From an uncultured Pseudomonadales bacterium (GTDB lineage Bacteria; Pseudomonadota; Gammaproteobacteria; Pseudomonadales; Azotimanducaceae), in assembly GCA_958296405.1 (NCBI GenBank), contig OY282519.1, positions 3,208,132 through 3,272,131 of the forward strand: a stretch of 64,000 nucleotides of DNA, in the 5' to 3' direction. This document shows positions 3,685 through 22,073 of the stretch, piece by piece. The notes beneath the pieces are model-generated. The model saw only the letters and a program-made list of their open reading frames with translations, had not been told where the DNA came from and made no database searches. Each line of letters begins with the position of its first letter. Positions within the stretch are counted from its first letter, which is position 1. The position numbers were made by a program, and so were the translations under genes.

Positions 3685-3720
3685 CCCGCTCGGCACACCC
3701 TCTGCGCATGAGAACGCCTC

Positions 3721-4170
3721 TCACTTCCACCCAGCACGGTCAAACACTTTCACCGCAAGGGACTGGTTGGCACTGAACACGGCGGCTTTGGCGGCATCTT
3801 CCTTGAACGTGCCGAGTTGAGCGACGGGGCCGGTGGCGGCGCCCACAACCGGATACTCGTTGTTGCCTGCGGCGAACAGGCGCTGGGCGAAGTCGCTGGT
3901 GAGGTATTCCAAGAACCCAATGGCCGCGTCACGGTTCGGGGCATGCCGGGCGATGCCCGCGCCGCTGATGTTCACATGCGCGCCCCGCCCTGCTTGGTTC
4001 GGAAACAGCACGCCCAAGCTCTCCACCACGGCTTGGTCCGCGGCCGCATCCGAACCGAGCAGGCGGCCGATGTAGTAGGTGTTGGCGATGGTCACGCCGC
4101 ACTCGCCGGCTGCGACGGTGCGCAGCTGGGCGGTGTCGTTGCCTTGTGGCCGACGGGCGAAGTTGACCAC
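3721..4170 (-). pseudogene. fbpA: Truncated fbpA: C-terminal 149 residues of an iron-binding protein, left boundary of the CRISPR island
   Basis: The minus-strand frame matches the last ~149 residues of the intact iron-binding protein at 21069-22073, ending in the same KVFDRAGWK. My hand alignment gives roughly 40 mismatches and no gaps over about 450 bp (~91% identity), with only about 15 amino-acid changes and no stops. Similarity starts a few bases past the stop codon (near 3712) and ends abruptly at 4170. Nine bases later the first CRISPR repeat begins. The signal peptide, N-lobe and start are missing, so it cannot make a working protein. The excess of silent changes says it belonged to a functional gene until recently. 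Confidence 0.9.
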
Positions 4171-4179
4171 TCAGGTGGT

Positions 4180-7052
4180 GTCTCAATCCCTTCTTCGTCA
4201 GGGCGAGTGCTCGAACTTGTGGGCGACATGCCCATCAAGGAAGTTCGGGCATTGGTCTCACTCCCTTCTTCGTCAGGGCGAGTGCTCGAACGGCTCCGCG
4301 GTGTTCGTCGGGCGAAGCTATGACCGTCTCAATCCCTTCTTCGTCAGGGCGAGTGCTCGAACAGAGGCCGCGCTAGAGCAATACATCGCATCCGCGCTTG
4401 CTGTCTCAATCCCTTCTTCGTCAGGGCGAGTGCTCGAACCGACGGTGTTCGGCGCGGCGGGGGGTCAGTTGGTGTCTCAATCCCTTCTTCGTCAGGGCGA
4501 GTGCTCGAACGGTTGCTTGACCAACTCACCAGCTAGTCTCTTTTCGTCTCAATCCCTTCTTCGTCAGGGCGAGTGCTCGAACGGCCAGCGGCGGCTCACC
4601 TCCGCCAAGTCCAGTTCGGTCTCAATCCCTTCTTCGTCAGGGCGAGTGCTCGAACCGACTCGAATGGGCGCGTCGTATCGTGAGGTGTACGTCTCAATCC
4701 CTTCTTCGTCAGGGCGAGTGCTCGAACCGGCACAGGAGAAAGACCATGAGCGAACACTTCAGTCTCAATCCCTTCTTCGTCAGGGCGAGTGCTCGAACTT
4801 GTCAGCATCGACTTAAACGGCAAAGCCGTCTACGTCTCAATCCCTTCTTCGTCAGGGCGAGTGCTCGAACGTAGAACTGCCCGAGGAATTGGTACTGATG
4901 ATGGGGTCTCAATCCCTTCTTCGTCAGGGCGAGTGCTCGAACGGCCCTCTCGAAGTCGCGGTCCACGGCAGCTATCCGTCTCAATCCCTTCTTCGTCAGG
5001 GCGAGTGCTCGAACCGAGGCCTTCGCGGGCACCGGGCGCAGCGCCGATCAGTCTCAATCCCTTCTTCGTCAGGGCGAGTGCTCGAACAAGAGCACATCAA
5101 TCGCGCCAAAGGGCTGCGGCTCACGTCTCAATCCCTTCTTCGTCAGGGCGAGTGCTCGAACCTCGCGCAATGTCTGCGACTCCGTAGACCTTGCGTCTCA
5201 ATCCCTTCTTCGTCAGGGCGAGTGCTCGAACAATTGAGGCTGATTGATGCGTGTCGAACGGGCTGGGTCTCAATCCCTTCTTCGTCAGGGCGAGTGCTCG
5301 AACGGCGCCCAAGTTGCCGACGCCCCGCACATGCAAGACGTCTCAATCCCTTCTTCGTCAGGGCGAGTGCTCGAACGACAGGGCGCGACGCGAAGGGTTT
5401 CATCCGTTGGCGGGTCTCAATCCCTTCTTCGTCAGGGCGAGTGCTCGAACGCGCTCCAAAGCGCCACGGGGCAATTCTGGCAGGTGGTCTCAATCCCTTC
5501 TTCGTCAGGGCGAGTGCTCGAACGGGAGATGCCCTTGGAGGAAGCGGCGGAGGATAAGGTCTCAATCCCTTCTTCGTCAGGGCGAGTGCTCGAACGCCGT
5601 GCGGCTGATCTCTGCGGAACGGAGTGCTGTGTCTCAATCCCTTCTTCGTCAGGGCGAGTGCTCGAACCTATCGGGGGAGTGGCGGAGTCGTCCGTGTTCG
5701 GCAGTCTCAATCCCTTCTTCGTCAGGGCGAGTGCTCGAACGGCAGCGTCCACGCGATAGCTTGTGACTCGCATCGTCTCAATCCCTTCTTCGTCAGGGCG
5801 AGTGCTCGAACCCCCAAGAGGCTGCCAAGATCGTCACCGAGCGCGAAGGTCTCAATCCCTTCTTCGTCAGGGCGAGTGCTCGAACTGGCAGCGTCCACGC
5901 GATAGCTTGTGACTCGCATCGTCTCAATCCCTTCTTCGTCAGGGCGAGTGCTCGAACCCCCAAGAGGCTGCCAAGATCGTCACCGAGCGCGAAGGTCTCA
6001 ATCCCTTCTTCGTCAGGGCGAGTGCTCGAACTGGCAGCCCACTACGACTGCTCGCACCTTATCCCAGGGTCTCAATCCCTTCTTCGTCAGGGCGAGTGCT
6101 CGAACTTGGGCGGTGGATGGTGCCCGCCCCATGCAAGTGCCGTCTCAATCCCTTCTTCGTCAGGGCGAGTGCTCGAACCATCAAGCGCAACCGCAAAGGC
6201 GATTTGACTGCGCGCGTCTCAATCCCTTCTTCGTCAGGGCGAGTGCTCGAACTTGATGGGGCGAGACTGACATGGACTACCTAGTGAGTCTCAATCCCTT
6301 CTTCGTCAGGGCGAGTGCTCGAACCCGACCGCGGCGATCAAGCGCTACATCGAAATCACGCGGTCTCAATCCCTTCTTCGTCAGGGCGAGTGCTCGAACC
6401 TGAGCGTGAGGCGCAGCGCCGGCTTTTGGGAGACTGTCTCAATCCCTTCTTCGTCAGGGCGAGTGCTCGAACGTTTCCGCGCCCAAGGAACAATCAATCC
6501 ATGATGTCTCAATCCCTTCTTCGTCAGGGCGAGTGCTCGAACGCCGCTACGGTTGCGGTTGGGAAAGCCGCAAGCCGTCTCAATCCCTTCTTCGTCAGGG
6601 CGAGTGCTCGAACGGCGGCAACGCATCCTCATGCGTATCGCGCATGACGTCTCAATCCCTTCTTCGTCAGGGCGAGTGCTCGAACACCGAGCAATGGGGC
6701 GTGATGCCGCCGGAAGCCGCGGTCTCAATCCCTTCTTCGTCAGGGCGAGTGCTCGAACGATTGGGCAATCCGTACAATGGGAACCGTGGATGGCGTCTCA
6801 ATCCCTTCTTCGTCAGGGCGAGTGCTCGAACTGCAGAAGGGCCCATATCCCAGGCTTTTCGCGCTCCGTCTCAATCCCTTCTTCGTCAGGGCGAGTGCTC
6901 GAACTGACAAAAGTGCTTGCATCCTGTTTTCCGTTGTGCCGTCTCAATCCCTTCTTCGTCAGGGCGAGTGCTCGAACCGAGCGCTATGGGCGGTGGCCTG
7001 GGTACAACCTTCGCCGTCTCAATCCCTTCTTCGTCAGGGCGAGTGCTCGAAC
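4180..7052 (-). CRISPR. CRISPR array, 40 repeats of 37 bp and 39 spacers (33-40 bp), type III-B
   Basis: I located 40 copies of a 37-bp repeat; on the plus strand it begins GTCTCAATCCC and ends GAGTGCTCGAAC. Spacers are 33-40 bp. On the minus strand the repeat ends in GGGATTGAGAC: a short CCCT/AGGG stem followed by ATTGAGAC, the usual 8-nt 5' tag of Cas6-processed crRNA. Transcription is therefore leftwards from the leader at 7053-7178, continuing the cas operon. Only the repeat at 4255-4291 deviates (GTCTCACTCC), consistent with this being the old, leader-distal end. Spacers at 5886-5920 and 5958-5994 duplicate those at 5741-5774 and 5812-5848. Long plus-strand open frames across the array are artefacts of the repeat. 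Confidence 0.98.
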
Positions 7053-7178
7053 AGACCACGGTCTGTTTTGAGCGACATTTCAATGGCTTGGAGCATGACT
7101 CGTGTATGCAAGCACGGCACCGTGGGGTTAACCTTCAAATGGGCACTCCTCCGTTTGGGGCGAACTGTCAAAGAGCGT
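7053..7178 (-). promoter_or_regulatory. CRISPR leader
   Basis: This 126-bp AT-richer non-coding gap lies between the last cas gene (cas2, stop at 7179) and the leader-proximal repeat. An inverted repeat AGACC-AC-GGTCT (7053-7064) abuts the first repeat, where new spacers would be inserted. A TTGACA on the minus strand (7166-7171) could be a -35, but no good -10 follows at the right distance, so the promoter is not defined. Confidence 0.75.
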
Positions 7179-7469
7179 CTACCGCCAAGCGAAAAGCAAA
7201 TCCTTGGCAAGCAGGTCTCTACCGTAAACCGACAATGGCGCGGGCGTCAATAGCGGGTACGCCCGAATGTCATCTCGGCGTGGATCAACGATGTGCTCCA
7301 GTTCACCGAGCCTTCGAACTACCTCGCGCCGCGTCAGATGGGTTTGAAACACCGAGTACTGGAGCGGCAAGGCGTACCGTTTCACCTGCTTATGCACCTC
7401 TCGAAGCCGGCGGGGATCAGCGATGTCATAACAGATCAACCAAGGCCGCCGTCTGTTCGCAGCCATCAT
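7179..7469 (-). CDS. cas2: Cas2, CRISPR adaptation protein (second copy, next to the leader)
   Basis: 96 residues. The opening RRRPWLICYDIADPRRLREV is the ferredoxin-like first strand with the conserved Asp, followed by the Cas2 pattern LQYSVFQTHLTRREV and the C-terminal DDIRAYPL segment. Cas2 dimers bridge two Cas1 dimers during spacer integration. Two start ATGs exist (7469 and 7466); the first overlaps the stop of the upstream Cas1-like gene as ATGA, so translation is probably coupled. It is the last gene before the leader. Clearly different in sequence from the other cas2 at 9178-9462. Confidence 0.93.
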   Translation of the reverse strand: MMAANRRRPWLICYDIADPRRLREVHKQVKRYALPLQYSVFQTHLTRREVVRRLGELEHIVDPRRDDIRAYPLLTPAPLSVYGRDLLAKDLLFAWR

Positions 7470-8209
7470 GCCTTCTCCCTAATGAGCCGAGCGAGGCCTA
7501 GCAGAGCTTGCCTAAGGTGAAAGTCAGTCGTCATCCGATCGCCTTCGAACAGCCTCACCAAGTCGGTTGCGCATCGGCCGATGCGGCCATGGGAGCCGTC
7601 TCGGGCGAGGTTCGGATGTAAACCCCACTGAATCACTGTTACGAGGTCCGGTGCCACCACCTCCAGCGAACGGTCAGCGTCACAGCAACCCAGCTTAGCC
7701 AACTCTTCAAGGCACCGGGCATACGCTAGGCCATAGAAAACACGCTTCTCTGCACGGAAGCCGGCGTCGTGCGTCGCCCATCGACGCACCGCGCGCAGAA
7801 CGCGCCCGCCACCCCGACCACCCAGCCCCATACGCAGCGAACAGAGGCCGATCGCGCGGCGTCTCCAAGCGAAGGCCCACTGCCGGTACGCATCGTGGCT
7901 ACCCGGCCGTTCGAGGAAGTGCCGCCAATCCTCGGAAAACGTGCTTCGGCTGGACGGCTCGCCGATCCAGCGCCGGCAAGGCAGACCATCGGAACCAAGC
8001 GCACACACCACGATGCCCGCAGCACCACATGCTAGGAGCGCTTCCGCAGCCCAGTCCACTTCCCCGAATACGACCACGCGAGAGACGCGTTTCAGCGGAA
8101 ACCGGCTATCGTCCGAGTGTCGTTTGCGAAACCGCAGTGCCGGGCCATCCAAGCACACCCGGATCCGTTCGGTAGCGCGAACATACAGAGGCGTCGCCGC
8201 GGTGTTCAT
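7466..8209 (-). CDS. Cas1-like protein, probably catalytically inactive paralogue
   Basis: 247 residues, shorter than the neighbouring 321-residue Cas1. The N-terminus has the Cas1 beta-domain pattern (LYVRATERIRVCLDG, FPLKRVSRVVVFGEVDW, GIVVCALGSDG). The C-terminus has a recognisable but altered version of the Cas1 active-site helix, GLHPNLARDGSHGRIGRCA then TDLVRLFEGDR. The Glu-Gly motif of the large domain (GIEG in the neighbour) is missing, the catalytic His position appears to be Asp, and the Glu after DLx is Arg; only one Asp is kept. Inference: a structural or regulatory Cas1 subunit, or a decaying copy. The frame is intact and overlaps cas1 and cas2 by 4 bp each, which argues it is expressed. 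I have not matched it to a named subfamily. Confidence 0.6.
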   Translation of the reverse strand: MNTAATPLYVRATERIRVCLDGPALRFRKRHSDDSRFPLKRVSRVVVFGEVDWAAEALLACGAAGIVVCALGSDGLPCRRWIGEPSSRSTFSEDWRHFLERPGSHDAYRQWAFAWRRRAIGLCSLRMGLGGRGGGRVLRAVRRWATHDAGFRAEKRVFYGLAYARCLEELAKLGCCDADRSLEVVAPDLVTVIQWGLHPNLARDGSHGRIGRCATDLVRLFEGDRMTTDFHLRQALLGLARLIREKA

Positions 8210-9171
8210 ACGGTCGCCTCCAAGGCCTTGCCATGCTGCACAAACTCGCGGGCAACCCGGCGCATTTCGCGGCGCAGGAGACGCCGCATCGTTTCGTTAA
8301 ACGGGTTGAAGTGCTCGTAGAAGCGTCTCCGAGCCGGTTTCCCCAACAACACCGCCTCCCCTTCGCGGCGAAAGCTCTGGTTGGTGAAAGTGCGCTCACG
8401 GAATTGCTCCCACACCCATTCATCCACATGGGGTCGAAACGGCTCGATGACATCTGCGGCGAACGACTCCCGCCCATACGCCGGTTGGTGGTAGAGGCCC
8501 AACATTGGGTCGAGGCCGGCCGCATGAGCTGCCGACACCGCCTCATAGTGCAACAGCGTATAGGCAAACGATAAGCAAGCGTTCACCGGATCGGGGGGCG
8601 GACGACGACGACGCCCTGCAAACCCCAACGACGGTGGGAATAGGCCCGCGTATGCGGAGAAGTATGCGGCCGCGGCCGCGCCTTCAATGCCCAAGAGCCG
8701 TGCCAACGTGAGTTCCGTGCATGAAGATGCGCTCTCAAGCGCCGCATCGAGACGGCGGATGGCGGCGAACAATGCGCGGCGCTGGCTCGGCCGTGATTCC
8801 ATCGCCCGTCGAAGCAAGCGCTGCTGCGCACTGATCTTCGCCTTCACCAGTTCCCGGGCCCAACCGACGCGGGCAACCGGATTTCGATAGGCGTCGAACT
8901 GCCCTAGCCGGCGCCATACATCGTTGTGAACCTGACCCACGCACGTGGCCAAATACCGAGAGCGCCTTCCACCTAACAGCGCAATGCTCGCACCCGCCTC
9001 CACCAATGCACCGATCACCGACGTGGAAAGCCGCACACGCCCATGCAACACCACGCGGTCTAACCCCGCAAGTGGAATCGAACCGCGGCGGCCCGCAGGC
9101 TCGTACACCTCCAACGCGCTCCCGGCGCAGCGAAGCTCAATGTCCTTACGATCGATGTAGAGCGTAGACAT
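8206..9171 (-). CDS. cas1: Cas1, CRISPR integrase
   Basis: 321 residues, typical length. Opens MSTLYIDRKDIELR with the beta-domain PLAGLDRVVLHGRV and GASIALLGGRR. The helical domain carries the metal-binding set: Glu in LLGIEGAAAAAYF, then His and Asp/Glu in GLYHQPAYGRESFAADVIEP. This is the catalytically competent Cas1 of the locus, inserting new spacers at the leader end with Cas2. The ATG at 9171 is 6 bp after the upstream cas2 stop, and the end overlaps the Cas1-like gene by 4 bp. No reverse transcriptase or Cas4 fusion is present. Confidence 0.96.
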   Translation of the reverse strand: MSTLYIDRKDIELRCAGSALEVYEPAGRRGSIPLAGLDRVVLHGRVRLSTSVIGALVEAGASIALLGGRRSRYLATCVGQVHNDVWRRLGQFDAYRNPVARVGWARELVKAKISAQQRLLRRAMESRPSQRRALFAAIRRLDAALESASSCTELTLARLLGIEGAAAAAYFSAYAGLFPPSLGFAGRRRRPPPDPVNACLSFAYTLLHYEAVSAAHAAGLDPMLGLYHQPAYGRESFAADVIEPFRPHVDEWVWEQFRERTFTNQSFRREGEAVLLGKPARRRFYEHFNPFNETMRRLLRREMRRVAREFVQHGKALEATV

Positions 9172-9177
9172 GTGCCG

Positions 9178-9462
9178 TCACCCCACATAGTAGAAACGGG
9201 GGTCAGTCGGCGGTGTCGCGATGCCCAGCAACACCGGCTCCGCCCGTTCCTCAACGCGCAGAAGGGCGAATCGATCCTCTCGTTCGTTGATCAGCCGGCG
9301 CCCCTGCACCAGCAAAGTCTTCCGCTCCAACGAAGTGAGAAAGCATTCGAACACAGACTTCTGCCCACCCGTCGCGTACGCCTTCACCGCACGATGCACC
9401 TGGTGCCGGCGGGAGTCGCTGGCCACATCGTATGCGGCAATGAAGAGTGATCGATTTGACAT
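9178..9462 (-). CDS. cas2: Cas2, CRISPR adaptation protein (first copy)
   Basis: 94 residues from the ATG of MSNRSLFIAAYDVASDSRRH, which places the conserved Asp in the first strand. KSVFECFLTSLERKTLL and FALLRVEE follow the Cas2 fold pattern. The start at 9462 is preferred over an upstream in-frame TTG because it has GGGGACGAG upstream and gives the normal Cas2 length. It leads a four-gene adaptation unit cas2-cas1-cas1-like-cas2. The 132 bp before it is the only large gap on this side of the locus and carries the shared near-palindrome at 9524-9538. Confidence 0.93.
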   Translation of the reverse strand: MSNRSLFIAAYDVASDSRRHQVHRAVKAYATGGQKSVFECFLTSLERKTLLVQGRRLINEREDRFALLRVEERAEPVLLGIATPPTDPRFYYVG

Positions 9463-9523
9463 GGCTCGTCCCCGTGCAAGAAAGATGCACACAGTGAACC
9501 ATCGCGGAGCGCAGCTCGCATGG

Positions 9524-9538: not shown

Positions 9539-9594
9539 GATGAGCGGCATCGGGGATCGGCTGGCGGAACAGTCGCCGTTGGTACCCATCTTCT

Positions 9595-10869
9595 CTACAC
9601 CTCTGGCGGCTCAGTGGGTAGCTGGGTAGGCTCCTTGCGCAAGCCTGCATGCTCGCGCAGCATCGGCAGAAACCGGTCCGCCGTCCACTGCTCGAGATCA
9701 TGCCAAGCACCGCTGGACACCGGATGGAAGCCGTGAGCGAGAATCGAATGGTTGCGCTTTTCCGAGTGAGCGAGCATTCGCTGGGCCTCGCGGTCGGCGA
9801 ACTGTTGGCAGGCGCCCTTGCACCGGGCTGCAACGATCTTCCAAGCGTTCGAGAGGCCAATCCTTACGTTCCCATCATCGCCTGCTGCGAGATCCATGCC
9901 GCTCGGCAGTTGATCGTGTGGAAACGCCTTCGTCTCGAAGCCCAACTGTTCTTTGATTTGCCACTGCGCCGTCCACTCAAGCAGGCGATACCAACGCGCT
10001 GTTGCATCATCGAACCGCCCTTGCGCAGCGCGTCGCTTTGCATTCAGCCAGAGGTCGAATAGCTGGGCAGGTTGGCGTCTTTCGCCGGCGCTCGTTAAGA
10101 GCTTTAGGTTTGGCACTAGATCGGGATAACGCTCCATCAGATCCGACCGGAAGGGTTCAACCAAGCGCCATGCCTCCTTGTGATCAAAGCGATCCCAACA
10201 GGCTAGCGCACGGCTCAAGGAGTGCGCGAAGAAGAACGTCTCGCCCAAACCCGGAGTGTTGATGCGAGGGCTCATCGTCTGCAACCCTTCTGCCGCCTCT
10301 TGGTAGGCGAACCGGCGCCAGCCATCCAAATGTACCGCCATGGCACTGCGTAGACGCAACGCATCCACGCTCGCAACCATCGACTGTTCGGTGCCGCCGG
10401 ACACCTGCTTCATATTGGTTCGCGGGCCGGTCACCAACCGCAACTCCACATCGTCGAACTCCAACGCGGCAACCACTAGCGCCGCAGTCATCGTTTTCGT
10501 GCCTCCAGTGTAATCCGCCACAAAAAAGTGCTGGGGGTACTGCTGCAATAGCGTGGTGATAGACCTTCGAATCACCTCGACGGCACCGTCCAAATCGTCG
10601 GCTGGCACCGTGCGGCACTCAAACTTGCCCTCTGCAAGGTGCGCTTGCGTTGGAATGTTGGGCAACGTCGGCTTCTCATCTTGTGCTTCGCTTCGAATGA
10701 CAAGACCGGACCCCTCAATTTGCACGATGGACCCGGGGCGACCAGATTTGCCTGCCGTGCAAAAGAAACAGACGTAATCCGGTTTCAAATCTTTGATCGC
10801 CCGCAGAATCGGCTGGTGGGTCCCACCGACGGTGCAGAGGAGAACGGTAGGCATCTTCGATCGGGGCAT
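9595..10869 (-). CDS. CARF-HEPN protein of the TIGR02710 type, cyclic-oligoadenylate effector
   Basis: 424 residues. The N-terminal Rossmann-like CARF domain shows VLLCTVGGTHQPILRAI at its start and ADYTGGTKTMTAAL, the signature loop of this family, near residue 120. The C-terminal third is helical and contains RNHSILAHG, an R-x6-H motif as in HEPN ribonucleases. Family knowledge: CARF domains bind cyclic oligoadenylate made by Cas10, and HEPN domains cleave RNA. It follows cmr6 after 18 bp in the same operon. Start: ATG 10869, or ATG 10854 (MPTVLLCTV), which fits the domain edge slightly better. Confident on CARF; the HEPN assignment rests on one motif. Confidence 0.8.
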   Translation of the reverse strand: MPRSKMPTVLLCTVGGTHQPILRAIKDLKPDYVCFFCTAGKSGRPGSIVQIEGSGLVIRSEAQDEKPTLPNIPTQAHLAEGKFECRTVPADDLDGAVEVIRRSITTLLQQYPQHFFVADYTGGTKTMTAALVVAALEFDDVELRLVTGPRTNMKQVSGGTEQSMVASVDALRLRSAMAVHLDGWRRFAYQEAAEGLQTMSPRINTPGLGETFFFAHSLSRALACWDRFDHKEAWRLVEPFRSDLMERYPDLVPNLKLLTSAGERRQPAQLFDLWLNAKRRAAQGRFDDATARWYRLLEWTAQWQIKEQLGFETKAFPHDQLPSGMDLAAGDDGNVRIGLSNAWKIVAARCKGACQQFADREAQRMLAHSEKRNHSILAHGFHPVSSGAWHDLEQWTADRFLPMLREHAGLRKEPTQLPTEPPEV

Positions 10870-10887
10870 CGCAGTTCGCCTAGAACG

Positions 10888-11910
10888 CTAGCTCTCCGTG
10901 TCCGGGGGCAAGTAGATTGCCTTCGTGCTCCGAGCCGCCCGGCTAGGCGGGCTATCCCACCAACCTTCCTTCTGCCAACGGCGACGAATGTCCTCAAAGG
11001 CCTCTCGCTTGAGATCCAGATCCTCGATCTCAGCCCAACGTCCTGCAAGTGGACGGCCACGCAACGTGTCATCTTTCGATGCACGGTGTTCTTTCATCAG
11101 CGCCTCAACGGCGTCGTCCACCCAATTGCAAGTCGGTTCCGGCTTTACGATGGCGTCGCACAGGAAGAAGCCATATCCCGCTCGAGTCTTCGCCCCAATT
11201 CCTCGCGTATGCAGTGCGTCCGTCAAAATCTCGCACGCTAGCCCGAGCCATGCGTTAGGACCTTCCATCACAAAGAAGAAATCTCCTTGCACCGCCACCT
11301 GTGCATTGGGCACGGGGCTATCCCAATCCGTCGCTGGACACTGGCCTCCGGTGCCGTAGTACTCCTTGTGGTGGCTGGTCACCACCTCCGCCACCAGCGG
11401 AGACTCTGCCGAGTCGGGCACCCACCAAACGTCGTGGAAACCGATCAGTCCAGCGAGGCCGGCAGGGTGGTGCTGAGTCGGTTCCGAACCGAAGAGTTCC
11501 CTACACACCGCGCGGCCTTCGTCGCCCTTGCTGCCGAATCGCTGTCGCGCACGGGCGCCGACAACACCCTTCACGCTAGAGCCTGGGATGTACGGCATGC
11601 CGTAGCTGTGGCTGATGGCGCAACCGATCTCCAAAGCGCCCTCACCCGCGGTGCCGATGAAGAGCCGCGACTCAAGGCGCAGCGTTATCTGGGAAAAGCG
11701 CTGCTGGTCCGCCGTTGCATCCTTCCAGCGACGGAAGGCGTTGCGGTACAGGCAGCTTGTAGAGACATTGCATATCTTCTGTATGTGTTTGGTCTTGGCT
11801 TCTTCCTTGGCATGCGCTTCCCAGCCTCGCTGCAGGAGCAAGCCGGCGTGTTGGTCGCAAGCCGCTTTGTACAACTCTGGCAGGCTCTTCCTCATCAACG
11901 GAGTCGACAT
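10888..11910 (-). CDS. cmr6: Cmr6, RAMP subunit of the type III-B effector complex
   Basis: 340 residues. The RAMP core is clear: RLESRLFIGTAGEGALEIG, then YGMPYIPGSSVKGVVGARAR (the G-S-S-x-K-G loop), GLIGFHDVWW, and late GIGAKTRAGYGFF (glycine-rich loop). Cmr6 caps the 3' end of the crRNA filament together with Cmr1. The ATG overlaps the cmr5 stop as ATGA. The first ~70 residues are a helical, basic extension. It is the last Cmr gene, followed by the TIGR02710-type gene. Confidence 0.92.
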   Translation of the reverse strand: MSTPLMRKSLPELYKAACDQHAGLLLQRGWEAHAKEEAKTKHIQKICNVSTSCLYRNAFRRWKDATADQQRFSQITLRLESRLFIGTAGEGALEIGCAISHSYGMPYIPGSSVKGVVGARARQRFGSKGDEGRAVCRELFGSEPTQHHPAGLAGLIGFHDVWWVPDSAESPLVAEVVTSHHKEYYGTGGQCPATDWDSPVPNAQVAVQGDFFFVMEGPNAWLGLACEILTDALHTRGIGAKTRAGYGFFLCDAIVKPEPTCNWVDDAVEALMKEHRASKDDTLRGRPLAGRWAEIEDLDLKREAFEDIRRRWQKEGWWDSPPSRAARSTKAIYLPPDTES

Positions 11911-12338
11911 CAGGCACTGCCCCCAGCGGCGTGTGTCTGATCTTCAGTGTGCCGGTCTCCCCGATCTTTCAGCAGGCCCTGCGCATAGCGCTTGATCCAC
12001 CCACTGGCCTCCAACGCATGCCGCGTGAGCTGCATCCACCGTTGCGGGTCGTCGCTGCCGATGATCTCTTCGTGAAGCTGCCCGACGTCGTTGCCTGCAC
12101 TGACAACGTCGGCGGCCTGCAGCACAGCGTTCAGGTCCCCAAGCAGCGCCTTGTGTTCGGTTTGGCACTTGGCGATGAGAAACCCCGTGGCTTGGGCGAG
12201 GCCATTCTGCAAGATCATGCCCGGCAACGCCTGCGCCAAGGATCGGTATTGTTCTTTCTCCTTGTCCGGCAAGCCAACTCGCGCGGCCACCCGCCGGTAT
12301 GCCTCTCGCGCCATCAAATGTGTGCGGGTGGTGATCAC
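11910..12338 (-). CDS. cmr5: Cmr5, small alpha-helical subunit of the type III-B complex
   Basis: 142 residues, helical. Begins ITTRTHLMAREAYRRVAARV and contains the Cmr5 pattern YRSLAQALPGMILQNGLAQA then TGFLIAKCQTEHKALLGDL. Cmr5 lines the minor filament of the Cmr complex. Coupled to cmr4 (4-bp overlap, start at 12338) and to cmr6. Confidence 0.93.
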   Translation of the reverse strand: MITTRTHLMAREAYRRVAARVGLPDKEKEQYRSLAQALPGMILQNGLAQATGFLIAKCQTEHKALLGDLNAVLQAADVVSAGNDVGQLHEEIIGSDDPQRWMQLTRHALEASGWIKRYAQGLLKDRGDRHTEDQTHAAGGSA

Positions 12339-13237: not shown

Positions 13238-13250
13238 GCTTGTTTTTTCC

Positions 13251-14513: not shown

Positions 14514-16252
14514 CGTTCGCCCAGCTCTGCGGCCACCCTGGCGGAGAGCCAGCGTGCCACGATCAGCAGATCCGCCACCTGGGCAAGCGGCTGCCCGTGA
14601 ACCCGTCGTTCAATGAGTTCGCGCTGCTCGGCGGCAATTTTCTCACCAACACCGGTTCGAGCCCGATCCAACAACAAGCAAATGTCCGCGTTTCGCATGC
14701 CATTGGCGCACTCGCTGCTGTCGCCGCGAAGCCACCACAAACGGCGATCGATGCCGCGCAAGTCGTAAGCGATGCGGGAAGGGAGCTTGCCGTCTCGAAA
14801 CGCGCCGATGGCGGAGCGCAAATCGTTCAACGCCGCCGCGTCGTCCCATTTCAGGCGCACCCGGTGTTCGCCGCCCGAGCGAATGCCCAAGACGATCGCC
14901 AGCGCGTTGCGCGGGCTGTCGCAAAGGCTGCCCTTGGCAAGGCGCTCTGCTTCTTCCGCCCGCGCGCGCAGCGCCCCCAACGGTTCCATGAAGTGACCAA
15001 GGCCGAGGCCCACAGAGAGCGTGGGCGAATCGCCGGCATCGATGTTCAACTCCGCCGCGACAGAAGCGAGACGCTCCTTGAAGGCCGCGGCCAATTCCTC
15101 CGCGCATCGAATCGACCGCGCCAGCGGTACCAGCGCCAGCACGTCATCGCCGCCGGCATAGATGGCATGGCCGCGGTGATGCTGGACCACTTCGCGAACG
15201 CGCGATGCGAAGCTTTGCAGGGCACGGGACATCATTCGTGATTGATCCACGTCGCTGGCCTTGGATAGGAACTGGCCCATCCTGTCTCCATCGGCCTTCA
15301 GGATCGCGGCGTAGGGAACCGGATACCCCCGGCCAATCCAACCCACACACTCCTGCAAGCCCCTGAGCTTTTGCTCTTCGTCTTTGTCCTCGGTTTGTGA
15401 GAGCGCCCGGTCCAGCCGAGACGGGTACAGCAACTGCGCGTCGTACGGCAAGGCGCGGTATGCGCCATCGTTGCCGCCCACCCGCGTCGCCAGCCCCAGC
15501 CCGACCATGGGTTTATAGGCTTGCCGCAGGCGATGTCGCTGTTCCCCGGTGAGCGACTCCTCGATCCAAGGATCAGCCGCAATGCGGGAATACGCGGTGA
15601 ATTGCTCTGAATCACCGGCCATGCGTTTCATCACGCCAAGCGCATCAAGCTGCTCGTTATCCGACAGGCCGAGTTTCCGCCGGGCGCGGCGGTTTTGTGG
15701 CGGCTTGGGCAGCACGGTTTCAAAGGCCCCATCCAACGAAGACTTCGGCAGCCCTGCCGTCGCCAAAGGCGGGCAAGGACGAAAATCTCGTGTCGCCTTG
15801 CGGGCCGCGAGCACACGGCCAAGCCGCCGGCCCGCCTCTCCGTAGTCCTCGCCGAGTGGCACCCAAGCCGCGTAGCACTCTAAGATGGTGTCCACTTGTG
15901 CGCTCCAAACATCCTCACGCAGCGGTTCCGCGAGCTTCTTCCGAGCGTTTTCGCCAAGCGCGACCAACCACGCCGCCGCAGTGTCCTTCGCTCCTTGGCA
16001 CAGATCACGAACGGCCTCCGCATCCGGCGCGGCAACTTCGGCCCGAAGGATGTTTGAAACGTTGGGTTCCTCCAACGCATCCAAGGGAGGGAAGATCAAG
16101 CAACCCGGATGGTGCTTGTGCAACTCGCGCGCGGCCGCTCGGGCCGCTTCTGACAGGAGCCACGATCCACACCACAGATCTCGGGTGCGGCGGGCGGCGC
16201 CGATTAAGCTCTGAACGGGCCCAAGGGACAACGCTAGAAGGTAACGGGTCAT
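14510..16252 (-). CDS. cas10: Cas10/Cmr2 without HD domain, cyclic oligoadenylate synthase subunit
   Basis: 580 residues. Begins directly with the first Palm region (LALSLGPVQSLIGAARRTRD), so the N-terminal HD nuclease domain of long Cas10 proteins is absent. The second Palm domain carries HAIYAGGDDVLALVPL, an intact GGDD active site for ATP cyclisation, followed by the usual LSVGLGLGHF strand. The first Palm keeps YAAILKADGDRMGQFLSKA. Expected role (family): crRNA-guided binding of foreign transcripts switches on cyclic oligoadenylate synthesis, which the three CARF proteins here would sense. With no HD domain the complex should not cut ssDNA through Cas10. Overlaps cmr1 and cmr3 by 4 bp each. 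Confidence 0.95.
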   Translation of the reverse strand: MTRYLLALSLGPVQSLIGAARRTRDLWCGSWLLSEAARAAARELHKHHPGCLIFPPLDALEEPNVSNILRAEVAAPDAEAVRDLCQGAKDTAAAWLVALGENARKKLAEPLREDVWSAQVDTILECYAAWVPLGEDYGEAGRRLGRVLAARKATRDFRPCPPLATAGLPKSSLDGAFETVLPKPPQNRRARRKLGLSDNEQLDALGVMKRMAGDSEQFTAYSRIAADPWIEESLTGEQRHRLRQAYKPMVGLGLATRVGGNDGAYRALPYDAQLLYPSRLDRALSQTEDKDEEQKLRGLQECVGWIGRGYPVPYAAILKADGDRMGQFLSKASDVDQSRMMSRALQSFASRVREVVQHHRGHAIYAGGDDVLALVPLARSIRCAEELAAAFKERLASVAAELNIDAGDSPTLSVGLGLGHFMEPLGALRARAEEAERLAKGSLCDSPRNALAIVLGIRSGGEHRVRLKWDDAAALNDLRSAIGAFRDGKLPSRIAYDLRGIDRRLWWLRGDSSECANGMRNADICLLLDRARTGVGEKIAAEQRELIERRVHGQPLAQVADLLIVARWLSARVAAELGER

Positions 16253-17436
16253 GAGCGGTTCCGCTGTGCTTTGAAGTAATGCATGAAGGCCGACAACACG
16301 TCTTCGCCTCGCCCCCGCATCGGCTCAATCTGATCCGCCAACCGTTTGCGGTTGTCGGCGTCGGCTGGCCACGCTGCCACCGATTGCCCCTTGCCAGCGG
16401 CAGCGCCCCTAAGCGCCACGGTCACGCCGATGCGTTCCTTCCAGCCAGGCAACAACAGGGCTAGCGGGCGATGCGCCTGGCCATCGAAATACGGGCGCAG
16501 GATGAGTGGGCTCGCCATGCGATCGTGCTTTTCCGCGGGTTCAAGCGTGGCGTCACTCGGGTCACTTTTGTCCTTGAAATGAAAGACGATCGGCAGGCCA
16601 AATGCGGCGCGAGGAAAGAAGCCATCTACTGAGTGCTTTGGCTCAAGCGACCACTGGCCAGCCTTGCGCCGGATCGTGTCTGCCTCGGGCCAGTTGCTGC
16701 GCCCAGGTCCCTTGCCACCGCCACGCCCATGCGGCGCTTGACGGAACCCCTCAAGTCGCTCAATGGCGCGTTGCCAAGCATCTGAAGCATTGGCGGCGGC
16801 CGGGCCAACCTCCATCCACCCCCCGAGCGCTTGGACTTCGTCGACAGACACCGGCTCGTGGGCAGACGCCGTCACCGCGCCAAAGCCACGCCGCGTTCGC
16901 GCCCCCACGCCGCCGAAGCTAGCCCACCAACGAATGCACTCACGTACCCGGCCGCGTTGCCCTTCATCAAGGCGATCATCAAAGCTGATCACAGCCTTGA
17001 AGGCGTAGCCCTCTTGTAGCAAGCACGGATCCTCACCGGGTTCCAGAATCAATCCATACGAAGGCAGGCGCAATTCGCTCTTGGGCCGCAAGCGCCTGCC
17101 CGCCGGCTCGCCTTGCACACGCAGGCCCACCATGCTGGCTTTGGCGTCACCGCCCGCAAGCCCGCCCCAGAGCTCGCGCTCCTCCCGAAACAGATCCTTG
17201 GGGCTGAGCCGACCGTTGCGGTTGTTCAAGAGACGCCACCAGAACCGCAGTTGACCGCGTATGCCGCTCGCGCGTATCGGCATCGCTTTGTCCACCTGTC
17301 CGGCGGCCACCCCACCGCCGTACATCGGCGTGGCCAAACTGCACTCCAACATCTCGCTCGATTCGGCACCTGCGGAGCTGGCGTTCCAGAGCTCTCGCGC
17401 CCTGTCCGCGCTGATGGTGGGCTGGCGGCGCCTCAT
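16249..17436 (-). CDS. cmr1: Cmr1, RAMP subunit of the type III-B complex
   Basis: 395 residues from the ATG at 17436 (GGAG eight bases upstream; a TTG two codons earlier is less likely). Typical N-terminus EMLECSLATPMYGGGVAAGQ, then MPIRASGIRGQLRFWWRLLN, which is the diagnostic Cmr1 motif, and later WWASFGGVGARTRRGFGAV. A C-terminal RAMP domain follows (SPLILRPYFDGQ). Cmr1 and Cmr6 form the head of the complex at the crRNA 3' end. First gene of the cmr unit, preceded by a 70-bp gap containing the shared near-palindrome. Confidence 0.95.
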   Translation of the reverse strand: MRRRQPTISADRARELWNASSAGAESSEMLECSLATPMYGGGVAAGQVDKAMPIRASGIRGQLRFWWRLLNNRNGRLSPKDLFREERELWGGLAGGDAKASMVGLRVQGEPAGRRLRPKSELRLPSYGLILEPGEDPCLLQEGYAFKAVISFDDRLDEGQRGRVRECIRWWASFGGVGARTRRGFGAVTASAHEPVSVDEVQALGGWMEVGPAAANASDAWQRAIERLEGFRQAPHGRGGGKGPGRSNWPEADTIRRKAGQWSLEPKHSVDGFFPRAAFGLPIVFHFKDKSDPSDATLEPAEKHDRMASPLILRPYFDGQAHRPLALLLPGWKERIGVTVALRGAAAGKGQSVAAWPADADNRKRLADQIEPMRGRGEDVLSAFMHYFKAQRNRS

Positions 17437-17500
17437 GCACAAACTCCGTCAAATCCTTGAAGGCAGAGCATACTCGGTGAGCGCGTTGCCTCGAATCGTC

Positions 17501-17511
17501 GCAACCTTGCC
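17501..17511. promoter_or_regulatory. Shared 11-bp core (GCAACCTTGCC) upstream of cmr1
   Basis: Reverse orientation of the GGCAAGGTTGCC core found upstream of cas2 and cas6. It lies between the csx1-like stop and cmr1, next to ATAATGG on the minus strand. See 9524-9538 and 21000-21014. Confidence 0.4.
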
Positions 17512-17512
17512 A

Positions 17513-18706
17513 TTATGAAAAGTGCCGCTCCAAGGACCGCTGCAACGCCTTCTTGAGAGCGGACGGCGTCTGGAGAGCGTTTCGCGCGTCCCTCGCCCAA
17601 TGCGGAGGGGGCGTGCCATGGGCCAGCGCGTTGCGAATGTGCGTGAGGGTCCAATACGCGTCTCCCTTTGGCCCATGTTCGCCATTCAATTCGGCCTCAA
17701 AGTCTTTGACAGCCAGTTCGCGTTCCTTGAACGTTGATGCCCCGCGCTGCTCGCAGACTCGGCTCGCGCAGGCTTCCTTGCCGAACATCGCCGCGCGCAC
17801 GAAGTCGCCGCGGTTGAGGTACTGATGCGCCAGCTTGCGCTGCTGCTCCCAGAGCGGATGCGCCCTCGCCCAGCGCAGCCGCTCGCTCAAGCGGCCTTGG
17901 AAGAGCCCGGAAGCGCCCGGCAGCCGCTCGTCCAAGACGGGCAGGAAGGCGCCGATCTCCCGCGCCGCGTCACGGACGTTCAGCGTCCTCTCAAGGAACG
18001 CCGCGGCTTCAAGGCAATTGGCTTGGTCCGCCGCGACGCCGTCCTCCTTGAGGAGCGGCGCGAAGACACCATAGTCACCGGTGGCGTCAAACCGGCCGAG
18101 CGCGTCCAACCAGCGGCGCACCCGCAACAACCCATCGAGCCGCAGCACCGGCGTGACGCCATCGTCAGCGGTCATGTCCAGCGCGCCGTACCACAAGCCG
18201 CGCACCCTTACGCCGCGCAGGCGCTCCAGCATGAAAGCAGATAAGAATCCCACCATGCCTAGATGCCGAAAGCCGTGCGTGAGGTCGAAATGCAACTCCG
18301 TGTTTCCGCCGGCGGCCGCATCGACCGCTTCCAAAATGGCGTGTTGTTCAGCTTCGTCGCGCGCATTTGGAATGAGCTTCGGCTCCACGGACGCATTCAT
18401 CGCCTGTCCCATCAACGGAGCGAGGCGGTCGAGCAATGGCTGCTGAACTGAGCCGGCGTTGTTCAACTCCTCTCGAGCGTCCATGCCATCGCCCCGGTTG
18501 CCGGCTAAGGCATCCACCAGCACGCTCCAAGAACTGCCCGACGTGCCGAGGATCACGATCCTGTCCGGCTGCAAGTGGCGAGCCAGCGCAAAGCCGAAAA
18601 AAGGCGTTTGATCAGTCGCGCCGTTCGGAAACCGATAGGTGGCCTCCTTGTATCCCCCGTCGCCATCCGGCACCTTGCCGAGAACGGTGATCATCGTGTG
18701 GGTCAT
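17513..18706 (-). CDS. Csx1-like CARF-HEPN ribonuclease (DxTHG family, TIGR02221-like)
   Basis: 397 residues. The CARF part starts MITVLGKVPDGDGGYKEATY, with RIVILGTSGSSWSVLVDAL and then the family signature FDLTHGFRHLGMVGFLSA (DxTHG). The C-terminal helical domain ends with HIRNALAHG, a canonical HEPN R-x4-H active site. Family knowledge: cyclic oligoadenylate binds CARF and activates non-specific RNA cleavage, causing dormancy or abortive infection. The start ATG 18706 overlaps the stop of the CARF-wHTH gene (ATGA); an ATG four codons later is equally good. Confidence 0.88.
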   Translation of the reverse strand: MTHTMITVLGKVPDGDGGYKEATYRFPNGATDQTPFFGFALARHLQPDRIVILGTSGSSWSVLVDALAGNRGDGMDAREELNNAGSVQQPLLDRLAPLMGQAMNASVEPKLIPNARDEAEQHAILEAVDAAAGGNTELHFDLTHGFRHLGMVGFLSAFMLERLRGVRVRGLWYGALDMTADDGVTPVLRLDGLLRVRRWLDALGRFDATGDYGVFAPLLKEDGVAADQANCLEAAAFLERTLNVRDAAREIGAFLPVLDERLPGASGLFQGRLSERLRWARAHPLWEQQRKLAHQYLNRGDFVRAAMFGKEACASRVCEQRGASTFKERELAVKDFEAELNGEHGPKGDAYWTLTHIRNALAHGTPPPHWARDARNALQTPSALKKALQRSLERHFS

Positions 18707-19851
18707 GGCACCGCGCTGCCAAAGCGGATTGCGGCCGCGGGGATGTCCAAGCCGTAGACTCTGCGCCGCCCTTCCACGAGATCGCTCACCAGATAGTCTG
18801 CTGCGCCCCGGAGACCGAGAGCCTTAGTGAGAGCGCGATGCAGCCGCGACTTGTGCTGCGAAAAGAAGCCGCTGTCCATGCCGTGCTTCAGCCTGTCTGA
18901 CGTGCGGTCACGAGCGCCCATCGGCCCGACGATCGCATCGTATTCTTGCAAGTAGGCTTTGGCGTACTCCCGGTCTGGCACGCCCTCGACGGGGCACGGC
19001 AACCGCCCCAACCCATTTTTTCGCCGCCTAGCCAGCCACGCCAACAAAGCGAGTTGCGCCGGTGGCAGCCTGACGATGCGGCCGCCAGAACGCACCCGCT
19101 TGCCGGGCAGGTCGATCACGAGTTGCAGGGGGCCGATGGCTTGCTGCGCCGCAACCACCGCATCATGGAACCGAATCTCCCCATCCAGCAACCCGTGGGG
19201 CAAACCCTCCCGCAGGCGCACGAACGGTATCTCAGCGAGTGTCACTTCGGCGTCTTGCGCATCAATGACATCGCCCTGTTCGCCTACCGGATGAACGGGC
19301 GCACTCGCCGGCGTTGGGTAGAAGAAATCCCCCGATGATTCGTAGCGCGAGCTTACCAACACATGCGATAGCCGATCTTGTGGACGGCCGTAAAGCGACA
19401 GCGCATAGCCTACATAGAAGCCCATCGTCTTGCGTCCGCCGGCAATGGACACATGCAGCGCACTCGTCTCATCCTGTGTGAGCTCGCAGAGCAACTGCGT
19501 GATCGCGTCGGCGGCGGCCGTGTTGTCCGCCGGCGTACGAATGTCATCTAGATGGCGGCCCGAAGCGTCCTGCAGCACATGGATGCATTGCACATCGAAC
19601 TCGATCGGCGGCAGCCGGTAGTCTGAAAGGAGGCGGTGAAACCAACCGGAGTTCGCGTCCAGCAGCTCTTTTGCCGCCAATGCCGCGCCATGCTGCGTCG
19701 TCACCAGCCTCACTTCCGTGGGCACGAACGCTGGCGACCCAGCAACAGCAAGCGCGTACACCGTTTCGGTGAGGATTTGCGGCGACATGCCCGTCACCGC
19801 CACCAAGACACGCTTGGGGTACGCTTCCGGATGCGCCGGATCAAAGATCAT
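18703..19851 (-). CDS. CARF-wHTH protein of the NE0113 family (TIGR02584), putative ring nuclease or sensor
   Basis: 382 residues from the ATG of MIFDPAHPEAYPKRV. The CARF part shows VLVAVTGMSPQILTETVYAL and ALHVSIAGGRKTMGFYVGYA, the recognised NE0113 motifs. The C-terminal half, from about residue 240, contains RIVRLPPAQLALLAWLARRR and ends VEGRRRVYGLDIP, which resembles a winged helix. Family knowledge: NE0113 proteins are annotated as CRISPR-associated ring nucleases, degrading the cyclic oligoadenylate signal. The winged helix also suggests DNA binding. Start chosen for fit to the family; the frame is open 34 codons further. Lies between cas6 and the csx1-like gene. Confidence 0.82.
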   Translation of the reverse strand: MIFDPAHPEAYPKRVLVAVTGMSPQILTETVYALAVAGSPAFVPTEVRLVTTQHGAALAAKELLDANSGWFHRLLSDYRLPPIEFDVQCIHVLQDASGRHLDDIRTPADNTAAADAITQLLCELTQDETSALHVSIAGGRKTMGFYVGYALSLYGRPQDRLSHVLVSSRYESSGDFFYPTPASAPVHPVGEQGDVIDAQDAEVTLAEIPFVRLREGLPHGLLDGEIRFHDAVVAAQQAIGPLQLVIDLPGKRVRSGGRIVRLPPAQLALLAWLARRRKNGLGRLPCPVEGVPDREYAKAYLQEYDAIVGPMGARDRTSDRLKHGMDSGFFSQHKSRLHRALTKALGLRGAADYLVSDLVEGRRRVYGLDIPAAAIRFGSAVP

Positions 19852-19909
19852 GGCGAAGCCGCGTTCAACTAGCGCCGCCGGGCGATTCGCGGACCGGGCA
19901 CAGCCAACA

Positions 19910-20932
19910 TCACAGCGACCCCGGGCCCTGCCAGCTTCCCGCAGACTCCGCATCCAGTGGTTCCAGCGTATATTTGCCTAGCCCCATCGTGCAGCCCTTG
20001 CCGATGTGTGTCCACTGACCAAGCCACAGGCACGGCCAGAACGCAGCTAGCTCGGGCGCGCGCAGGGTGAAAGTACCCAGCAGCCCACCCATCGGCACCA
20101 CCGCGTCTTGGCGGGACGAGCGACGGGACAAGTCCCGCCAGCGCAGCTCAGCGTCCCTAAGCGCCACGCCTTCGGCGCTGCGCACCAGCGCGGCGAAATC
20201 CACTTCCAACGGCTCTTCACCGCAGAAGTAGGTGAGCAGCGAGATGCGACGCAACAAGTTCGCAGCGAAGGCGCGAAAGTCAAACTTTATCGGCCGCACA
20301 TAGCCTCCGCCGCGGCGCACGCGCAGCGGCGAGAGCAGGCGCACACGCACCGTCTCTGGCACCGCCGGCGGCCGCAACGGCACCGCCATTGCGGCGGTCA
20401 AGTGCTGCTTGGCTGGTTAGATGGTCTCCCAAACCGGGCCATCCGCCCCGGGCCGCTCCATCTGCACTTCCTCCAAGTCGAGCACAACGCCAGCAGGGGT
20501 TAGTCCATCTCGACCAGCGCTCTCAAGGGCATGGAGCACCGTGAGCGCGTCGTCATTCGCACGGCCAAACAAAGTGAGGCCAAGGTTGACCGTACTGTGC
20601 TTTCCATCGGAGCTTTCGGCTGGTTCGATGACATAGGGATTTGGGGCAGTCGGGTAGAGGCGGAGCTTCTTGGCATCGGCCGGTGGGCGGTTCTCAAACG
20701 TGCGCGGATAGACGCACGATGCCAACAAAGCGCACTCATCGCAGCTCGGTGGCAAACCCATGATGCACACGGCGCGACGCAACGCATGTCCGAAGGCCCC
20801 GCGCCACGCGGAACCCAAGTACCTCCCGGCCAGCAGGTTGGCGTCGTCAGCCCGAAAACGCAGCCGGTAACGTGCGATGCGCAGTTGCGGCGCCATGTTT
20901 GCTGCGGCGCTCAAGGTTTGCGAGTTAGCCAC
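19910..20932 (-). pseudogene. cas6: Cas6 pre-crRNA endonuclease interrupted by an in-frame TAA
   Basis: Two same-frame halves. Residues 1-171 (20932-20420) have the Cas6 N-terminal pattern, including GSAWRGAFGHALRRAVC and a Cys cluster CDECALLASCVYP. The second half (20401-19913) has the C-terminal domain: VRVRLLSPLRVRRGG, NLLRRISLLTYFCGEEP and a glycine-rich end GKGCTMGLGKYTLEP. They are separated only by TAA (20417-20419) and five sense codons, with no frameshift. The second half could restart at TTG 20401 or ATG 20389 but lacks a good ribosome site. Cas6 should cut each repeat before ATTGAGAC. This is a recent nonsense mutation, a split protein, read-through, or a sequencing error. GTG 20932 is preceded by TAAGGAG. 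Confidence 0.85.
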
Positions 20933-20967
20933 CGCGAGACCACTCCTTACCCACGGTTTGTGCAGCC

Positions 20968-20996
20968 ATTATCGAGGCCGCCACACCACGCGCCAA
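20968..20996 (-). promoter_or_regulatory. Sigma-70-type promoter for cas6 and the cas genes
   Basis: On the minus strand TTGGCG (20996-20991), exactly 17 bp, then GATAAT (20973-20968). The predicted start is about 30 bp before the cas6 GTG, with TAAGGAG between. The shared near-palindrome lies directly upstream of the -35. Confidence 0.6.
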
Positions 20997-20999
20997 TGC

Positions 21000-21014
21000 T
21001 TGGCAAGGTTGCCG
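21000..21014. promoter_or_regulatory. Near-palindrome TTGGCAAGGTTGCCG next to the cas6 promoter
   Basis: Identical over 15 bp to the element upstream of the adaptation genes. It ends 4 bp upstream of the cas6 -35, a common place for an activator or repressor site. Confidence 0.45.
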
Positions 21015-21068
21015 CGGTTCGCCTAGTCCATCCGGAGCCCAGCCTCCTCGCCAAAGCGCGAACGCCGC

Positions 21069-22073
21069 TCACTTCCACCCAGCCCGGTCAAACACTTTCA
21101 CCGCAACGGCCTGGTTGGCGCCGAACACGGCGGCGTTGACGGCGTCTTCCTTGAACGTGCCGAGTTGCGCGACGGGGCCGGTGGCCGCGCCCACAACCGG
21201 ATGCTCGTTGTTGCCTTCGGCGAACAGGCGCTGGGCGAAGTCGCTGGTGAGGTACTCCAAGAACTGAATGGCTGCGTCCCGGTTCGGGGCGTGCCTGGCG
21301 ACACCCGCGCCGCTGATGTTCACATGCGCACCCCGCCCCGCCTGGTTTGGAAACAGCACACTCAAGCCCTCCAACACGGCTTGGTCCGCTGCCGCGTCCG
21401 AACCGAGCAAGCGGCCGATGTAGTACGTGTTGGCGATGGTCACGCTGCACTCGCCGGCGGCGACGGCGCGCAGCTGCGCGGTGTCGTTGCCTTGCGGCGG
21501 GCGGGCGAAGTTGGCCACAACGCCTTCGGCCCACGCTGTCGCGGCCGCTTCGCCGTGGTGTTCGACGAGCGAGCCGAGCAGCGAAAGGTTGTAGATGTTG
21601 CCGGATGAGCGCATGCAAACCTGGCCCTTGAGCCGCTCGTCCGCAAGGTCTTCATAACGCGCAACGCCATCGGGCAAACCAGCCGATTTGTTGTGGACGA
21701 TCACGCGAGCGCGCTTGGAGAGCCCAAACCAGCGGCCATCCGGGTCGCGCAGGTGGGCGGGCACGCGCTCGGCCAGCACCGCCGAGTCGATGGGTTGGAA
21801 CAAGCCCTGTTCCTGCGCGCGCCAGAGCCGGCCTGCATCCACCGTGATGAGGATGTCGGCCGGGCTGAACTCGCCCTCGTTGGCGATGCGCTCCATCAGG
21901 GCGTCGCTGCCGCCCTCGATGAGATTGACGGCGAGGCCGGTGGTCTCCTCAAAGCGTTCGTAAAGGGCAAGGTCTGTGTCGTAGTGGCGAGCGGAGTAGA
22001 CATTCACCTCCGTGGCCGCCGCCGTCACAGCGCCGATGAGCAAGAATGTGAGACTGATGGCTTGGCGAAGCAT
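21069..22073 (-). CDS. fbpA: Iron(III) ABC transporter, periplasmic binding protein
   Basis: 334 residues. Signal peptide MLRQAISLTFLLIGAVTAAA with cleavage before TEVNVYSARHYDTD, the start of the mature protein in the FbpA/FutA family. The iron-ligand Tyr pair lies in IANTYYIGRLLG. The start at 22073 is chosen for the signal peptide and the GGGAAG upstream; a Fur-box-like sequence precedes it. Role: captures ferric iron in the periplasm for the FbpB-FbpC transporter. The fbpC stop lies 48 bp upstream. Its 3' half is duplicated at 3721-4170, on the other side of the CRISPR island. Confidence 0.93.
   Translation of the reverse strand: MLRQAISLTFLLIGAVTAAATEVNVYSARHYDTDLALYERFEETTGLAVNLIEGGSDALMERIANEGEFSPADILITVDAGRLWRAQEQGLFQPIDSAVLAERVPAHLRDPDGRWFGLSKRARVIVHNKSAGLPDGVARYEDLADERLKGQVCMRSSGNIYNLSLLGSLVEHHGEAAATAWAEGVVANFARPPQGNDTAQLRAVAAGECSVTIANTYYIGRLLGSDAAADQAVLEGLSVLFPNQAGRGAHVNISGAGVARHAPNRDAAIQFLEYLTSDFAQRLFAEGNNEHPVVGAATGPVAQLGTFKEDAVNAAVFGANQAVAVKVFDRAGWK

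Follow-up and report, generated by a model that had tools for sequence, protein, structure and literature searches.

The DNA considered here (the window) is a stretch of 64,000 nucleotides from an uncultured Pseudomonadales bacterium of the Azotimanducaceae (assembly GCA_958296405.1, contig OY282519.1). Within it a type III-B CRISPR-Cas locus, hereafter the island, occupies the DNA between two copies of the 3' end of fbpA. When the window was aligned with itself by BLASTN, positions 3712–4170 and 21060–21518 matched over 459 bp at 90.85% identity, without a gap and on the same (minus) strand; a repeat search of the window gave the spacing of the copies as 17,348 bp. The initial annotation, which had reported ungapped copies of about 91% identity on one strand to either side of the locus, was accurate in this respect. 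The pair is the only one of at least 200 bp outside the CRISPR array in the 153,132 bp around the site (E ≤ 1e-20), so that general repetitiveness of the region offers no explanation for it. Searched against the organism's own genome, a single contig of 3,825,434 bp, the fbpA region found two strong places and two matches of 30 and 44 bp.

The copy at 21060–21518 is the 3' part of an intact fbpA gene (21069–22073, minus strand; Pfam SBP_bac_6; PDB entry 2pt1, E 2e-109), the predicted product of which is, by comparison with solved structures, a FutA/FbpA-type ferric-iron-binding protein. A gene for an ABC transporter ATPase (22122–23420, minus strand; Pfam ABC_tran and TOBE_2) adjoins it. The copy at 3712–4170 is an orphan, drifting fragment from which the 5' end of the gene is missing. 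It keeps 149 codons without a stop, and the sole start-like codon listed for it is a GTG at the joint with the island. On its far side lies a sel1-repeat gene on the plus strand (3022–3684; Pfam Sel1).

An fbpA match (E ≤ 0.001) was obtained in 14 of 58 genomes, the organism's own included, and several of these matches span only 28–78 bp. The only close fbpA relative in the collection, at 95% identity, is another uncultured Pseudomonadales bacterium (G008). In that genome the ABC ATPase gene is followed by fbpA and, after about 100 bp, by sel1, with one fbpA match, no island and no fragment; the locus of G008 is an empty site. The initial annotation had proposed a search of related genomes for an fbpA with no island, and the nearest relative has just such a single gene at the same place. 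The opposite arrangement, which it had named as telling against its reading, namely full tandem fbpA genes with no island between them, was not seen in this one close relative. With one match in G008, tandem full genes were set aside as an origin of the pair.

Both sides of the locus can be followed into G008. On the fbp side the synteny is continuous, and on the other side the fragment, 22 bp without a BLAST match and sel1 are colinear with G008. The homology of the intact copy to G008 stops at 21057, 12 bp past the stop codon. The fragment, which is 92.2% identical to the G008 fbpA, is followed by the same sel1 gene (86% amino-acid identity) that follows fbpA in G008; it therefore retains its native neighbour, and it is the intact fbpA that now faces cas genes. 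Two origins of the fragment had been offered previously. There is no need to suppose that the insertion interrupted a second fbpA paralogue, given that the fragment has the neighbour of the single G008 gene. As for the fragment having arrived with the island from a relative, events probably ran the other way: with the fragment in its native context, and on the polarity that we infer, the incoming part is more likely to have been the island with an attached fbpA allele.

Past sel1 the two genomes differ. The slot there, bounded by a common sulfatase-side block and by the fbpA side, holds a NACHT-domain ATPase in G008 and an AAA ATPase resembling NsnB/AriA in the organism studied here (−2350 to −986 in window numbering, to the left of the window). 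The island thus has for a neighbour a slot whose defence-like genes already vary, and these two genomes suggest that this slot next to sel1 may be a defence hotspot. Also to the left of the window, a 392-bp stretch (−2871 to −2482) has three copies of about 91% identity in 180 kb of G008 and is possibly a mobile element.

The CRISPR array (4180–7052, minus strand) consists of 40 repeats of 37 nt and 39 spacers of 33–40 nt. The repeat has a handle-like end, ATTGAGAC, which by the rule that we take to hold for such ends makes 4180 the distal end of the array, in agreement with the location of cas1 and cas2 at the opposite end. Homology to fbpA ends at 4170, a perfect repeat starts at 4180, and the 9 nt between them (4171–4179) would be the remnant of a cut spacer. 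The outermost repeat has no mismatch in 37 positions and its neighbour has one. This is not the situation in the two related arrays that were compared, those of the genomes G226 and G066, where the outermost repeat has ten and seven mismatches of 37, respectively; the outermost repeats of G226 (10, 1 and 7 mismatches) form a cluster about 2 kb apart from the main array. Set against these degenerate ends, the perfect last repeat makes the array look as if it had been cut inside a spacer. The natural end of the array is probably missing, with the joint lying within a spacer.

The repeat was found, at up to three mismatches, in one of 206 genomes of the family, the organism's own, and at the same threshold is absent from G008 and seven other genomes of the genus. 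No spacer matches fbpA or the joint in a BLAST search of all 39 against 153 kb of the own genome and 180 kb of G008. The spacer at 5015–5050 matches the organism's own chromosome beyond the window, with 30 of 31 nt identical at about 91257–91287 in window numbering. The target is an HlyD-type gene that G008 has too. If the direction of the array is as deduced above, the guide has the same sense as the HlyD-type mRNA, and a type III complex should be blind to the transcript. At 5741–6032 two spacer-repeat units of the array, 146 bp together, are duplicated exactly in tandem.

The island genes all lie on the minus strand, in the same direction as fbpA. Besides the array they comprise cas1, a second, diverged Cas1, two cas2 genes, cmr1–cmr6 including cas10/cmr2, three genes for CARF proteins and cas6. 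The predicted set, Cmr1–Cmr6 with Cas10/Cmr2, is that by which type III-B is defined. Its members are cmr6 (10888–11910; PADLOC Cmr6, 4e-29), cmr5 (11910–12338; PADLOC Cmr5, 3e-24), cmr4 (12335–13237; TIGR02580, 216.6 bits), cmr3 (13251–14513; TIGR01888, 73.5 bits), cmr2/cas10 (14510–16252; TIGR02577, 154 bits) and cmr1 (16249–17442; TIGR01894, 43.6 bits). Cmr1, Cmr2 and Cmr4 score over their NCBIfam cut-offs and Cmr5 and Cmr6 are assigned by PADLOC. Cmr3 is below its cut-off of 100.4 bits but is the best match and stands in the expected place.

On the array side of these genes are cas2 (7200–7469, the 3' limit being approximate; Pfam CRISPR_Cas2, 1.1e-14, with tblastn matches at syntenic places in G226 and G066), the gene for the diverged Cas1-like protein (7466–8209; PADLOC 'Cas1, diverged variant, second in the loci', 3e-9), cas1 (8206–9171; Pfam Cas_Cas1, 4.5e-73), a second cas2 (9178–9492; Pfam CRISPR_Cas2, 6e-10) and a CARF-HEPN effector of Csx1/Csm6 type (9595–10869; Pfam Csm6 HEPN and PADLOC). 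The diverged Cas1-like gene sits directly behind cas1, and G226 has one too. On the fbpA side are a CARF-HEPN protein of TM1812 type (17513–18706; TIGR02221 and PADLOC, with no Pfam match at 1e-3), a CARF protein of NE0113 type (18703–19953; TIGR02584, in NCBIfam a ring nuclease/Csm6; Pfam Cas_NE0113) and cas6 (19910–20932), which in translation is split by an in-frame TAA at 20417–20419. Both halves keep their similarity to Cas6 (PADLOC N- and C-terminal parts), and the cas6 genes of G226 and G066 have no stop there. Upstream of cas6 there is one promoter-like match (9 of 12 positions), where shuffled sequence gave 0.1 on average; terminator-like sites at the joints were not above shuffles. 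Among the 15 minus-strand open reading frames (ORFs) scanned between the copies none was named as an integrase, a transposase or a plasmid gene, antisense ORFs being outside the scan. There is no tRNA gene in the window. Elsewhere, a distant Cas1 homologue (34–36%) is encoded in the own genome (C1:2458604–2459368) and in G008 (C1:2905189–2905953), and both may hold a second CRISPR system.

We then consider how the copies have diverged. Synonymous divergence (dS) is 0.206 between the fragment and G008, 0.220 between the intact 3' part and G008, and 0.244 between the fragment and the intact copy. The copies are about equally distant from each other and from G008, which fits alleles of two lineages. 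A recent local duplication of fbpA is disfavoured by the same figures, though the sister tree that it predicts is not rejected in the test given below. The regional median of dS to G008 is 0.13 over 49 ORFs, those left from 62 after 13 with stops in G008 had been excluded, and some of the 49 are probably in the wrong frame in this GC-rich DNA.

The initial annotation described the changes between the copies as mostly silent and the fragment as having been under selection until recently. Neither statement holds. The 42 differences divide into 22 silent, 19 non-silent and one non-coding. Assigned by agreement with G008, nine silent changes fall on the fragment branch, 12 on the intact branch and nine on the G008 branch; the corresponding non-silent changes number 15, four and none. 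The excess of non-silent changes on the fragment branch is significant against the other two together (Fisher p = 0.0012) and against the intact branch alone (p = 0.027). In simulations of neutral change, at most 15 non-silent changes in 24 arose with P of 0.08–0.19 and the lack of a stop codon with P of about 0.57, so that neutral drift is not rejected. Taken together, the excess and the simulations indicate drift of the fragment over much of the time since it became separate, or over all of it. It had been proposed that a phylogeny placing the fragment as an old, freely drifting pseudogene would tell against the earlier interpretation; the drift is borne out, but the tree leaves the order of the fragment, the intact copy and G008 unsettled. 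For the 450-bp segment, analysed with six outgroup sequences of which two (G001 and VXNE) are almost identical, the approximately unbiased (AU) test gave 0.69 for intact with G008, 0.42 for fragment with G008 and 0.159 for fragment with intact, and rejected none. A fragment outside intact plus G008 is slightly favoured (bootstrap 52).

On balance, and with rather more belief than doubt, we think that the fbpA–sel1 locus acquired the island when two fbpA alleles, belonging to related lineages, recombined. In the donor lineage the island would have stood downstream of fbpA, and the recipient lineage would have had none. Pairing through homologous DNA on the fbp side would have brought in the donor fbpA together with the island. 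At its far end the incoming DNA, broken off within the CRISPR array, would have been joined illegitimately to the recipient fbpA near codon 186, giving the order fbpA, cas genes, truncated array, the recipient's own fbpA tail as an orphan scar, and sel1. Of this account, the sequences themselves show that the fbpA 3' end occurs twice, that the site in G008 is empty, that the fragment keeps its native neighbour and has undergone relaxed evolution, and that a perfect last repeat stands 9 nt from the joint. That the intact copy is the donor's, that homologous DNA on the fbp side served as the anchor and that the array was truncated are our deductions from this, as are the order of events and the mechanism. 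Two alleles at about equal distances, a fragment in native context, an apparently cut array and no mobile-element gene among the ORFs scanned all fit such a joining of two alleles.

Several points weigh against this proposal. A genome with fbpA and the island and no fragment, the arrangement expected of a donor, was not found, the repeat being present in the one family genome already mentioned. By dS no imported tract or boundary is visible on the fbp side, where the values for fbpA (0.17) and the ABC ATPase (0.08) are indistinguishable from the regional median. The dS of sel1 to G008 is 0.395, the second highest of the 49 ORFs, and the left flank may itself have been imported, which would reverse the polarity. 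There is also a hint of a mosaic, which the proposal does not need: of the informative sites, 20 lie before repeat position 215, and at 12 of these G008 matches the fragment, while 21 lie beyond it, and at 17 of these G008 matches the intact copy (maximum chi-square permutation p = 0.019 for silent sites and 0.081 for all sites, the break having been picked to maximize the contrast). Finally, the comparison uses the single close relative in the collection, and the joints are read from one assembly without reads.

The main rival explanation is that the island entered fbpA directly and duplicated 459 bp of its target in the same event, as has been suggested for restriction-modification genes of Helicobacter; of the two copies, identical at first, the 5'-truncated one then decayed. 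Such an event would produce the same structure, with long direct target repeats and an empty site in a relative. The sister tree of fragment and intact copy that it predicts is not rejected (AU 0.159), nor is purely neutral drift of the fragment. We nevertheless regard it as doubtful. The copies diverge from each other about as much as from G008, so that a duplication would need to date back to roughly the time at which the species separated, and the missing natural end of the array is left unexplained.

Integration by a single (Campbell) crossover of a circle that carried the island and a 459-bp piece of fbpA would produce just what is seen: a single full gene, the island and a copy without its 5' end. 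The mosaic hint at silent sites would fit a crossover within the repeat if the donor were nearer to G008 than the recipient was, but it is not significant over all sites. An earlier event is required that set the piece of fbpA beside a cut array on the circle, and no plasmid gene was named between the copies. This route seems to us unlikely. A decidedly slim case can be made that the island is ancestral and that G008 lost it by recombination between the copies: their divergence is about as old as the split, and G008 shows the structure that such a deletion leaves. The deletion, however, predicts a fragment-like 3' end in G008 beyond the crossover, and after position 215 it is the intact copy that G008 resembles; the repeat, moreover, was not found in G008 or in the seven other genomes of the genus.

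Site-specific islands often restore the 3' end of their target gene. An origin as an island of this kind, or as a composite transposon, is nonetheless very improbable: no integrase or transposase was named in the ORFs scanned, the window has no tRNA gene, only four identical bases stand at the end of the cut homology before the first mismatch, and the flanking repeats are fbpA coding sequence, with no insertion sequences at both ends. Although the joints are seen without reads, an assembly artefact is hardly credible for copies that are 91% and not 100% identical, with both flanks colinear with the assembly of another genome and the genome in a single contig.

We surveyed other type III-B loci for comparable repeats. 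A Cmr2 or Cmr4 match judged to mark a real locus was present in 15 other genomes (G066, G226, G553, G407, G482, G512 and nine over the cut-off), weaker matches and 14 genomes below the cut-off being outside this count. Ten of the 15 loci were examined (G683, G625, G675, G594 and G579 were left out and G638 was covered over 24.7 kb only), and none of the ten has a direct repeat of a host gene across it. In G902 the raw direct matches, of 780–850 bp at about 70%, are CRISPR array units on both sides; G759 has one direct match of 58 bp at 91%, a short repeat. The remaining eight loci gave no raw direct match, G553 and G612 giving translated matches only. In this sample, then, type III-B islands do not regularly carry the duplication, which belongs to the event considered here. 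The nearest relatives by Cmr2 that were found, at 61%, are G066 and G226 of the same family. Their loci share with the island the order of the common genes, a similar repeat and about 50–83% protein identity among best matches, but they stand at other chromosomal places and have degenerate outermost repeats, a cas6 without the stop and no flanking duplication. G066 has no match to the second Cas1 or to the CARF-HEPN gene at 9595, and G226 has none to the gene at 17513.

The arrangement is informative and resembles known routes of gene acquisition. For modules of the type VI secretion system of Vibrio cholerae, homology-facilitated illegitimate recombination has been proposed, as a putative mechanism, for orphan gene ends (PMC5361080). 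As those modules are outlined there, they enter behind a conserved anchor and the displaced part of the recipient stays downstream as an orphan. Here, too, the array side is joined to the middle of fbpA without extended homology, which is one feature of that mechanism; the cargo differs, being a 17-kb CRISPR-Cas locus, and the displaced end comes from the very transporter gene that is proposed as the anchor. Insertion with long target duplication has been described for restriction-modification genes (PMC4978471, PMC3031569, citing Nobusato et al., 2000), and in the cases sketched in those papers defence genes lie between long direct target repeats with an empty site in a related genome. Long direct repeats and an empty site in a relative are likewise found at fbpA. 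In contrast to those insertions as sketched, the copies are 9% diverged and the array seems to have lost its end, features that speak for two alleles rather than for a single duplicated target.

The initial annotation further held that recombination between the copies would delete the island and leave one intact fbpA. In principle it could, and the leftover homology permits such a loss. The longest identical run between the copies is 37 bp, however, most crossover points would carry altered codons of the fragment into the fbpA product, and there is no sign that the deletion has occurred.

To our knowledge, the entry into chromosomes of CRISPR-Cas loci without mobile-element genes is rarely visible. 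No title or abstract retrieved by our literature searches, which missed most subscription journals, describes such an entry record for CRISPR; this is weak evidence of absence. At the locus described here, an empty site, an orphan tail in its native context and an array apparently cut in a spacer together amount to a preserved record of entry. They also provide a signature that can be searched for: directly next to the end of an array stands a copy, truncated at its 5' end, of the gene that lies on the other side of the cas operon. A more speculative reading, which we hold to be less likely than not, is that related bacteria exchange whole CRISPR-Cas loci without the help of mobile-element genes; one end would recombine homologously at an anchor gene, and the other would have been broken inside the array. 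The orphan tail would be the signature of such a transfer and would later supply homology for loss, so that immunity at this locus may be reversible.

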